The notes under the pieces were generated by a model. It had not been told where the DNA came from. It ran no database searches and saw only the letters and a list, made by a program, of their open reading frames with translations. The position numbers and the translations under genes were made by a program. Positions 3 through 7,458 of a DNA stretch of 49,858 nucleotides are shown here, one piece after another. This stretch comes from Candidatus Saccharimonadota bacterium (GTDB lineage Bacteria > Patescibacteriota > Saccharimonadia > Saccharimonadales > AWTP1-31). Location: the NCBI GenBank assembly GCA_003962975.1, contig RXKC01000005.1, positions 1,660-51,517 of the forward strand. Direction: 5' to 3'. Numbering within the stretch: position 1 is the first letter of the stretch; each line of letters begins with the position of its first letter.

Positions 3-110
3 TCGGCCAACCCGGACAATGCTGACAACGCGTTCAACGCGAACTTCAATGAGACGGAAGTCAATCCGGCTGACAACAATAATCGTAACGCTGGGTTTGC
101 GGTTCGCTGA
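3..110 (+). CDS. 3' end of an Asn-rich, C-type-lectin/FGE-like protein (partial)
   Basis: The third forward frame is open from the window edge to a TGA at 108-110 and reads as an Asn-rich tail ending NRNAGFAVR. This kind of ending (many AAC/AAT codons, then GFAVR and a stop) is typical of formylglycine-generating-enzyme/C-type-lectin folds and of variable regions of DGR target proteins. It lies tail-to-tail with the ATPase gene on the minus strand. Only about 35 residues are visible, so the fold is inferred from composition and the terminal motif. It does not match the template repeat at 6018-6128. It could equally be a target of another DGR, a template-like copy, or a non-variable lectin-type surface protein. 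Confidence 0.45.
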   Translation, partial: SANPDNADNAFNANFNETEVNPADNNNRNAGFAVR

Positions 111-147
111 CTCTTACGGCATATTTCTGTGGTGGCTTTATGGCTTG

Positions 148-3584: not shown

Positions 3585-5756
3585 ATGCCAGTAGAAAATC
3601 CTGATCCAACTTCACCCCAACTGCCAAATGAGCCCACTGAACTGGGCCAACCGATTGATGAGTGGCAACAGCTTGCTCGTGAAGCTCACGAAGGGTGGGA
3701 TATGGATCACCCCGGTGTCGCCGCTTTATATGAGCATCACGTGGCACCCAGACTGCAAAACGATAGTGCCGGTCAGCCAGCGCCGACTGGTGAAGAACGA
3801 GCTGGTGGCCGTTTTTTGCATAAACACGGTAGTGTTGACTCGAAAGAAGTTGAACAGGTCGTTGGTTATCTGCGTTCAAACGGCGAAACAGTCCCCGATA
3901 AAGCGGGCGATCGTACCGCTCATTACTTGAACTTTATGGCCGAGGCCGTCAATGATGGGATCTTAACCGGTGACCCAGATAGTGTGAGACGTCAAATTGA
4001 TGCACATGTCATTAAGACCGAAGATGTGCCGGAGAGCTATTTTGCCTTGCAACGCCGTATTGCACGAGAGCAAGGGCATGGTGATATTGAAATTACCCCA
4101 GACATGAAACGTCAACTGATTGAGGCTGCACAGGCAGATCAACGAGGCAGTTTAGATAAGTGGGTAGAGTATCTAGGTGGAGACGACGGAAGCTATCCTA
4201 ATTGGTTTAAGCGGTACGCCTGGGACTCCGTACTGAAACTAGGAGCCTATGATAAAGAAAAAGCTAAGTTTGATCGTCGCGACAACACTACGGTGGCTGC
4301 CTACCCTGAACTTAACCGTGAAGCCCTCGCCTACGCCTATGACACGGTAAAGAAGTTCCATGTCCTCGGTGAGACGGTAGATGAGCCACAGCTTACGCAG
4401 ATCCTCAAAGAAGGCAGTTTTGGTAGACTATATGCTCATGCCATTATGGAGGTTACGCCGGATTCACTAGAGAGCCGAAACGAAGTACGTGGCTCATGGA
4501 CGCTCTTTAACCAAACGACTGACCCGCGTACCGCTCGACGACTCAGTGGTTCTCTACAAGGTCACGGAACTGGCTGGTGTACGGCCGGCGAAAGTACAGC
4601 CGAAGCACAGCTTCAAGGTGGAGACTTTTACGTCTACTACACCCGAGACGAAGATGGCAAAGACACCATTCCTCGTGTGGCGGTTCGTATGCAAGCTGGT
4701 GAGGTGGCTGAGGTTCGTGGGGTACTGCCGAGCCAAGAACTTGAACCGATCATGGCAGATATTACCAGTGAACGACTCCAAGGCTTGCCTGGTGGCGAAC
4801 GATACATCCAGCGTGCTACTGACATGAAGCGACTCACGGCGCTTGATGGCAAACTGCAAAAAGATCCGAATACGCCACTAAGTAAAGAGGATTTACTCTT
4901 CCTATACGAGTTTGACCGTAACATCGAAGGCTTCGGCTATGATCGTGACCCCCGCATTGCAGAAATACGGTCTAAGCGTGGTGAACGCGATCTCCCTGAG
5001 ATTGCTGCCATGCTACCAGAGGTTCTAGCAAGCCAAGGAGCCGCAAGCTATTCAGCATATTATGAGATTGCGGGAGCCACTGGAGCAGAAGCGATTAGTG
5101 AGCTACAGTTCCGACACTTACTAGAGACACAGATGACTGAGTGGTCAACCAACGGGGTTATGGATTACGTCGTTCGTGACTTTATCGAAAGTGGCAATAA
5201 GCCCAACCTATTAGCTACCCCTAATGTGACTGCTAGCTGGCAGACATTACGCGCTATGGCCACCAAGTTCGGAGAGAGCCAGCCGTACGAAACGTACATC
5301 TACGAAGAGTTATACAGTCAATACACTGCTGAAGAATTATCCGGCCAACCGACAGGCGGAGCTCTTCGGTTTAGTATCATGCCATCTGGTGATACAAAGC
5401 AGCTAGGTTACGCACCCGTCAATGATCAGTTGACGGCACTGCGACGCATGCAGGCAGATCAGCCTAGACTAAACGCGCGAGTGCCAAGTGTTCTGGATGC
5501 ACTTACCTTCTGGCAGACCTTACGTGCCCGAGGTGATGCCCTCGTTGGTAGTGGAGTTTTTGAGAAAACAATTATTAGACACTTTGATCTTGCTGCTAAG
5601 CGCCTTGGTGGCTGGTCGGACGTGCCGTACTCGTTTGTGCTTGACGATGGCCGGCCCGCTTCGGCACTTCGGCTTCCGAGAATGACGACCATGCTCGCGT
5701 CCTGGTGGGGTAAAAACTTTATCTTTGCTCCTTCTTCTTTTTCCTTCTCCTTTTAA
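3585..5756 (+). CDS. DGR target protein with C-terminal variable region (frameshifted tail)
   Basis: A 723-residue protein and the presumed diversified product of the DGR. There is no signal peptide or membrane segment. The body holds a conserved-looking GTGWCTAGE motif at about 325-333 followed by GGDFYVYYTRDEDG, a core I do not assign to a named family. From residue 673 (RLGGWSDVPYSFV) the gene is the VR, matching the TR except at template adenines. A one-base loss near 5659 shifts the frame at about residue 692. Without it, the frame would end HARVLVG with a TAA at 5711-5713, just past the VR. The current frame runs on through pyrimidine-rich DNA to a Ser/Phe tail. Such VR-bearing C-termini form ligand-binding C-type-lectin-like surfaces in characterised DGRs. 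Confidence 0.8.
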   Translation: MPVENPDPTSPQLPNEPTELGQPIDEWQQLAREAHEGWDMDHPGVAALYEHHVAPRLQNDSAGQPAPTGEERAGGRFLHKHGSVDSKEVEQVVGYLRSNGETVPDKAGDRTAHYLNFMAEAVNDGILTGDPDSVRRQIDAHVIKTEDVPESYFALQRRIAREQGHGDIEITPDMKRQLIEAAQADQRGSLDKWVEYLGGDDGSYPNWFKRYAWDSVLKLGAYDKEKAKFDRRDNTTVAAYPELNREALAYAYDTVKKFHVLGETVDEPQLTQILKEGSFGRLYAHAIMEVTPDSLESRNEVRGSWTLFNQTTDPRTARRLSGSLQGHGTGWCTAGESTAEAQLQGGDFYVYYTRDEDGKDTIPRVAVRMQAGEVAEVRGVLPSQELEPIMADITSERLQGLPGGERYIQRATDMKRLTALDGKLQKDPNTPLSKEDLLFLYEFDRNIEGFGYDRDPRIAEIRSKRGERDLPEIAAMLPEVLASQGAASYSAYYEIAGATGAEAISELQFRHLLETQMTEWSTNGVMDYVVRDFIESGNKPNLLATPNVTASWQTLRAMATKFGESQPYETYIYEELYSQYTAEELSGQPTGGALRFSIMPSGDTKQLGYAPVNDQLTALRRMQADQPRLNARVPSVLDALTFWQTLRARGDALVGSGVFEKTIIRHFDLAAKRLGGWSDVPYSFVLDDGRPASALRLPRMTTMLASWWGKNFIFAPSSFSFSF
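5601..5710 (+). repeat. DGR variable repeat (VR)
   Basis: Aligned with 6018-6128, this segment is identical at every non-adenine template position. Twelve of the 18 template adenines between 6036 and 6091 are substituted: 6036 G, 6045 T, 6052 T, 6057 C, 6058 T, 6069 C, 6070 G, 6075 G, 6081 G, 6082 G, 6085 C, 6091 C. One adenine (6075 or 6076) is missing and five are unchanged. The 34 nt at 5674-5707 are identical to the template and would contain the initiation-of-mutagenic-homing site. A6126 is G at 5708, the only difference beyond that core. Adenine-specific change is the hallmark of DGR mutagenic retrohoming. Confidence 0.95.
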
Positions 5757-5890: not shown

Positions 5891-6061
5891 ATGTCTGCAC
5901 AACAAAAACCTTTCAATCCCCACGTTATAGCCACTCAGAGTTCGCGGATTAGCGGGCTGAAAAAAGAAAAGAAGCAGTTGATGCGTCAACTGTGGAAGGA
6001 ACTGAGTGATGTACGAGCGCCTTGGTGGCTGGTCGAACGTGCCGAACTCGTATGTGAATGA
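5891..6061 (+). CDS. possible small ORF running into the template repeat
   Basis: A 56-residue frame beginning MSAQQKPFNPHVIA, rich in Lys/Gln/Arg, without a stop until TGA at 6059-6061. Its last 44 nt lie inside the TR, read in a different frame from the one the target uses. No homologue is recognised and no clear Shine-Dalgarno sequence precedes it. It could be a real accessory peptide, a decayed gene, or simply the leader of the TR RNA. DGR template RNAs usually include a non-coding flank next to the TR. Confidence 0.3.
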   Translation: MSAQQKPFNPHVIATQSSRISGLKKEKKQLMRQLWKELSDVRAPWWLVERAELVCE

Positions 6062-6128
6062 CGATGGCAAGCCCAACTTCAACAATTCGGATTCCGAGAA
6101 TGACGACCATGCTCGCGTCCTGGTGAGG
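6018..6128 (+). repeat. DGR template repeat (TR)
   Basis: Donor copy of the VR. Read in the target frame it encodes an Asn-rich stretch (RLGGWSNVPNSYVNDDGKPN and on through NFNNSDSENDDHARVLVR), with AAC/AAT codons at the sites that vary, exactly as adenine-directed mutagenesis requires. It lies 0.3 kb downstream of the target and upstream of the RT on the same strand. It is the RNA template for error-prone reverse transcription. The avd-like gene on the other strand ends 17 nt past its 3' edge. Confidence 0.95.
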
Positions 6129-6144: not shown

Positions 6145-6460
6145 CTAGACACTTTTGCGCCAACCGCCAATTTGACGACGAGCTTCAACAAGCTTAGCTT
6201 GTAGCTTTAGTGCATTGGTCTCGTTGACTAAGTTAAGTTCCAGAATTGCACGCAGATTGAGTGCCGTAAACTCAGCATGGGTATCGGCCGCTATAAGGTA
6301 GGTAGCTTTATGGCTCTTCGGTGCATGCTTGGCTAAGATAAGTTGTTTGAGTGTCTCACCACAACTGGCTACCGTAGGCTCGCCCAGGGTGTGACGGTAC
6401 TTTTTATCTATGGTTGTGCTTAGGGTGGCTAGTTTCTTATATACTTCGTACGTAACTGTA

Positions 6461-6480
<20 letters not shown>
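6145..6480 (-). CDS. avd: Avd-like DGR accessory protein (four-helix bundle)
   Basis: A 111-residue helical protein with features of the bAvd/S23-like four-helix family: KKYRHTLGE near the first helix turn, long amphipathic helices, and an ending RRQIGGWRKS with the GGW seen in Avd proteins. Avd forms a pentamer that binds nucleic acid and the RT and is needed for mutagenic homing in the Bordetella phage system. The start at 6480 (MEELSVITVTYEV) is chosen over the ATG at 6612, because the longer frame would overlap the RT N-terminus and has no Avd-like extension. Unusually it faces away from the RT: the two 5' ends overlap by 20 nt on opposite strands. Confidence 0.75.

Positions 6481-7458
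<978 letters not shown>

Follow-up and report, generated by a model that had tools for sequence, protein, structure and literature searches.

Mutagenic homing by diversity-generating retroelements (DGRs) requires both a reverse transcriptase (RT) and the product of avd, the accessory variability determinant. DGRs of the Patescibacteria (CPR) were reportedly covered in work by Paul in 2017. In the type case, the DGR of Bordetella phage BPP-1 (bRT structures 8UB7 and following entries), substitutions between the template repeat (TR) and the variable repeat (VR) are confined to adenines, the RT is of the GIPIGNLTSQ type, an Avd homologue is present, and the C-terminus of the target is the part that varies. 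The element that we describe here has each of these features. It departs from BPP-1 in the placement of avd on the opposite strand, in the microsatellite that occupies a length-variable loop just before GIPIGNLTSQ, and in an RT that is out of frame and carries a stop codon. With the Patescibacterial (CPR) DGRs that make up clade 2 of Roux 2021 (PMC8144416), it shares host group, cellular location, and a compact cassette. Repeat switches of the kind proposed here are described in no paper on that group that could be searched. Among the papers retrieved by full-text searches on DGRs and repeat-based phase switching, none describes such a switch in its title or the opening part of its abstract, several key DGR papers lying outside that search.

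Two other kinds of known system are relevant. Inactivated DGRs have been described (Schillinger 2012, PMC3521204) in which the RT has suffered a frameshift or a nonsense mutation and the VR and TR still differ only at adenines. The present element resembles them in both respects, but its frameshift lies at a repeat that recurs among Patescibacteria, and relatives with an in-frame RT exist. Simple-sequence contingency loci, such as those responsible for tetranucleotide phase variation in Haemophilus and the homopolymer tracts of Neisseria and Campylobacter (PMC2651432, PMC6321876), contain, within coding sequence and often close to the start codon, tracts of mono-, di-, or tetranucleotide repeats whose unit number sets the reading frame. 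The tracts described below are of the same type. Contingency loci typically switch surface structures, whereas here the gene that would be switched belongs to the hypermutation machinery itself, and switching is inferred from the sequence.

Results

The window (the whole stretch of DNA analyzed, 49,858 nt) contains a Patescibacterial-type DGR, with a target gene that bears a C-terminal VR, a TR, an opposite-strand avd, and an RT gene. The target gene (3585 to 5756, forward strand) encodes 723 amino acids at present. It has no match in Pfam, but other genomes from the same order contain homologues with 55 to 60% identity. Its 3′ end is the VR (5599 to 5710, forward strand; 112 nt), an arrangement that defines DGRs. 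The TR (6016 to 6128, forward strand) has 113 nt, of which 26 are adenines. An alignment of the two repeats has 113 columns, with 13 substitutions and one gap, and all 13 substitutions fall at TR adenines, which is again a defining feature of DGRs. By hand calculation, the chance of such a result given 26 adenines among 113 positions is (26/113)^13, or about 5 × 10^−9. Both the VR and the TR of this element are present once in the 1.21-Mb genome, which is assembled in 31 contigs. A short open reading frame (5891 to 6061, 56 amino acids), which has no Pfam match, lies between the VR and the TR and extends into the latter.

The avd gene (6145 to 6480, reverse strand) is encoded opposite the RT, and its 5′ end overlaps the RT start. 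Its product scores 100.8 bits against an Avd profile built in this analysis and matches the Pfam family bAvd (PF22296) with E = 5.5 × 10^−6, which is below the curated cut-off. The DGR-type RT gene (6461 to 7458, forward strand) lies near the TR/VR pair, as in DGRs generally, although here it is interrupted. We find that it is broken twice, with RVT_1 matches in both halves. Its frame is first interrupted by a perfect (AGCC)14.25 tetranucleotide tract (6987 to 7043, forward strand) in the length-variable loop before GIPIGNLTSQ, the second half of the RT being in a different frame from the first across this tract, our proposed phase switch in its OFF state. The second interruption is an in-frame TAA (7231 to 7233, forward strand) in the second half of the gene. 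The out-of-frame RT and this TAA argue against active mutagenic homing at present, although three other DGR RTs in the genome are intact and might act in trans.

In a relative (locus L126 of genome G017), whose RT has bRT 8UB7 as its best match, the orthologous tract is 49 nt long and in frame; here it is 57 nt long and out of frame, so that the two alleles are two units apart. The AGCC tract is perfect in both genomes, though the surrounding RT DNA has diverged. We also considered whether the tract might reflect a genome-wide feature and rejected this idea. Runs of at least five AGCC units occur at this site only in the entire genome, and tracts of this kind are rare in flanking DNA.

A preliminary description of this locus, made from the sequence letters, had read the VR as one base short of its template and the target gene as frameshifted beyond the loss. 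Both readings hold. The VR has 112 nt against 113 in the TR, the natural stop codon of the ancestral frame (TAA, 5711 to 5713) is passed, and the reading frame instead continues into a Ser/Phe tail (...GKNFIFAPSSFSFSF) that ends with the TAA at 5754 to 5756. Apart from the missing base and the resulting frameshift, the VR differs from the TR only at adenines. The same description had placed the deletion exactly at an adenine pair, with one A replaced and one A missing. The change from CCCAAC in the template (6072 to 6077) to CCCGC in the VR (5655 to 5659, forward strand) is there, but its assignment to the AA is unproven. Once adenine mutagenesis is allowed for, the missing base can be one of the three Cs of CCC, one of the two As, or the C after them, and these six placements within the template hexamer fit equally well.

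The VR sequence is a single consensus from a metagenome-type genome in 31 contigs, and thus the possibility has to be weighed that the VR, the RT tract, or both contain an error of sequencing or assembly. Another frameshifted VR in our survey, that of L388, comes from an old metagenome and, compared with its TR, has small indels at three separate places, which may be sequencing error. For the present locus, we consider error improbable. The replacement of CCCAAC by CCCGC is no simple homopolymer length error, the neighboring genes are open, and such tracts are found in many independent assemblies, a pattern for which assembly error offers no explanation.

VR indels were surveyed in 478 distinct TR/VR pairs, taken from 618 loci with DGR RTs. 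We detected 21 clean internal VR indel events. Sixteen measured 3 or 6 nt, and the remaining 5 had other lengths. Indels of frameshift length occur in five VRs, namely those of this locus, L093/L122, L306, L388, and L461. These counts bear out the earlier proposal that mutagenic homing also makes indels and that some of its products are null. The companion proposal, that VR indels occur at adenines, survives in part. When placement ambiguity was allowed and random indels put into real pairs served as the null, 20 of the 21 indels were adenine-compatible, compared with 13.1 expected (P = 5.6 × 10^−4). For frameshifts alone, the figures were 4 of 5 against 2.6 expected (P = 0.20), which is not significant, and at the present locus the lost base need not have been an adenine. 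We therefore do not retain a specific association between frameshifting VR indels and adenines, which was not significant by itself in the 478 pairs with simulated nulls. The events behind the overall signal are those of 3 and 6 nt, most of which lie in AAC codons. In-frame indels in multiples of three within AAC repeats were posited by Wu et al. 2018, according to Unlu et al. 2026 (PMC12875486), who credit the effect to that work; this part of our result is not new.

One of the other frameshifted VRs belongs to a close Saccharibacterial relative (L093/L122, Saccharibacteria CG_4_10_14_0_2_um_filter_52_9). There, AACAAC has become GCCTCTAC in the VR, a +2 frameshift, and the VR stands next to an RT that is in frame and contains a (CAGT) tract of 71 nt.

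How the base was lost at the present locus can be explained in more than one way. If the RT passed over a template adenine pair in the course of misreading it, the VR deletion would be a direct product of mutagenic homing. Adenine skipping is a plausible mechanism for single-base losses, and as the cause of this one we give it slightly less than an even chance. The general excess of adenine-compatible indels is consistent with it, as are the existence of a frameshifted VR beside an in-frame RT in L093 and the fact that the deletion is the sole non-substitution change in a VR with 13 of 13 changes at adenines. This has to be set against the origin of the general signal in in-frame AAC indels rather than in frameshifts, the ambiguous placement of the base lost here, and an RT that is now broken. 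Because the RT is out of frame and contains a premature stop codon, lesions that the preliminary description overlooked, the VR deletion could postdate the loss of activity. The lost base is either a homing error from the last active rounds or a later ordinary deletion.

Repeat tracts in the RT loop are not peculiar to this genome. We classified 528 RT loci with profiles for the RT half before the loop and the half after it. Relatives of the present element carry tetranucleotide tracts just before GIPIGNLTSQ, with the units AGCC, AGTC, AGAC, and AGCA, and wider sampling showed that poly-G, GA, CT, or CA tracts occupy this site in further lineages of Patescibacteria. Our cellular set comprises 180 DGR loci, mostly Patescibacterial, and its taxa are not independent. 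Within this set, all 31 RTs whose halves are in different frames carry a tract of 9 nt or more with period 1, 2, or 4, located at the junction or next to it, compared with 9 of the 148 in-frame RTs, the other 139 being without one. Under a stricter threshold, tracts remain in 27 of 31 out-of-frame and 7 of 148 in-frame RTs (Fisher P = 1.8 × 10^−21). The four OFF loci that fall below this threshold are L131 and L169, which have 10-nt tracts; L139, in which the tract is mid-RT; and L180, which is affected by a coordinate offset.

Both halves of the out-of-frame RTs score like those of intact RTs. Between 81 and 100% of the TR/VR differences in OFF loci are at adenines, which indicates that these elements were recently active. 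In-frame alleles are present for all three period classes, and the loop trait has undergone no fewer than 22 changes on an RT tree with 174 tips. The elements thus combine a frame-changing repeat tract in coding sequence with the presence of both in-frame and out-of-frame alleles among relatives, each a feature of contingency loci.

These observations bear on a rival explanation, plain decay. Here, the RT frameshift, the nonsense codon, and the VR deletion would all be ordinary loss-of-function mutations, and the repeat would be a neutral expansion in a pseudogene. Two independent RT lesions and a broken target in a single element fit such a history, and inactivated DGRs with adenine-only VR/TR differences are known (Schillinger 2012, PMC3521204). 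Random decay, however, does not account for 31 out-of-frame RTs in which the lesion is always at the repeat and the halves score as if intact, nor for in-frame RTs with the same tracts. The mutual exclusivity of the tracts, the absence of triplet periods, and their rarity elsewhere (see below) speak against it as well, leaving only the TAA of this copy explained. We regard decay as unlikely.

Part of the loci were picked for short open reading frames, and the ratio of ON to OFF alleles is consequently biased, while the association, exclusivity, and enrichment of the tracts are not obviously biased by this selection. A less selected subset comprises 13 OFF and 4 ON alleles. The predominance of out-of-frame alleles among the assemblies could be taken to favor recoding, in which transcriptional slippage or ribosomal frameshifting at the repeats would supply a constitutive low dose of full-length RT or Avd with no heritable switch. 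Poly-G and dinucleotide tracts can indeed promote slippage. Tetranucleotide tracts of 34 to 95 nt with several unit types, on the other hand, are unlikely slippage signals; in-frame alleles are found in all three period classes; and the same device would be required at three sites, in two genes, and on opposite strands. Recoding is possible for the poly-G tracts and unlikely for the long tetranucleotide tracts, and as a general account we think it improbable.

Three contigs (G047:C18, locus L108; G608:C22, locus L693; and G536:C27, locus L703) start at or near the RT loop. That of L108 starts inside the tract, which suggests that assembly breaks may hide further tracts.

Non-triplet tracts occupy three sites in the 180 cellular loci: the RT loop (34 loci), the middle of the RT (11 loci), and a position immediately downstream of the start codon of avd (35 loci). 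Tracts at these sites never coincide in a locus, where 10.0 coincidences would be expected, and only 1 of 200,000 shuffles gave so low a count. An avd gene was detected in 139 cellular DGRs and is antisense to the RT in 112 of them. Exactly one tract is present in 71 (63%) of these 112 elements and two in none, and the overlap of 0 against 12 expected was reached in 0 of 200,000 shuffles. The pattern is also seen in the less selected subset, in which 47 antisense-avd DGRs have an overlap of 0, with 4.2 expected (313 of 200,000 shuffles).

The avd tracts are poly-C, CA, CT, or GA and lie between the start codon and the body of avd. Among the 33 of 35 loci examined, 7 are ON, 23 are OFF, and 3 are undecided. 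Mid-RT tracts consist of AC or GA, and about half of the 11 loci are out of frame. We detected no triplet-period tract in the RT or in avd 5′ ends, compared with 80 loci that have a non-triplet tract. In total, 86 tracts were found in 289 kb of RT and upstream sequence, as opposed to 9 in the 678 kb of DNA that flank it in the same loci, where they are thus about 20-fold rarer. A tract is not a general property of DGR RTs, however, as only 3 of 340 viral-contig DGRs carry one.

Discussion

A slipped-strand phase switch would explain the repeat in the RT of this element. We put the probability at roughly 0.8 that the tract is such a switch, that it is OFF here, and that the VR is now fixed in a null state. 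The case for phase variation comes from comparing alleles: the tracts have frame-changing periods only and several stop-free units, they recur, they exclude one another, and both states occur among relatives. Replication slippage would change the number of repeat units and so set the frame of the RT or Avd. Mutagenic homing would then be turned on or off as the two parts of the RT came into or fell out of a common frame. Such switching would be stochastic, so that a minority of cells diversify and the bulk of the population stays stable. Here the switch would be OFF, a state that the TAA probably makes permanent; this copy, having that TAA, is probably past switching. The OFF state would freeze the frameshifted null VR, which the next round of homing could overwrite in an active element.

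Many Patescibacterial DGRs are probably contingency loci with one microsatellite switch each, placed in the RT loop, in the middle of the RT, or at the start of avd. If this is true, DGRs would be subject to heritable and reversible on/off control via a microsatellite in the RT or avd, which would couple two main bacterial strategies for stochastic diversity, phase variation and targeted hypermutation. A single switch per element would address both how DGR hypermutation is controlled and the broken appearance of many DGRs in sequence data. It would also caution against dismissing “frameshifted” Patescibacterial RT or Avd genes as pseudogenes.

The genome studied here contains three further DGRs of a different kind, with FGE/lectin targets and the order VR-RT-TR. 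Their RTs are intact, and none has a VR indel. The TR of one of them, the second DGR, lies in the window (11 to 116, forward strand), and its intact RT and VR are just outside. In this element (L088, 1 to 1775), the 398–amino acid RT is directly upstream of the window, the VR and TR differ almost only at adenines and without an indel, and a run of N just precedes the TR. The other two intact FGE-type DGRs are on contigs C16 (L089) and C31 (L090) of the same genome (G000). The DGR on C31 adjoins a homologue of the large ATPase gene found at 148 to 2913 of the window, as does the copy on C12.

Several DGRs are also found together in another Patescibacterial genome, G559, which has at least five (L661 and L712 to L715), each with its own avd tract. 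These tracts differ in length (CA13, CA25, CT19, CA18, and CA21), and one reads as ON and four as OFF.
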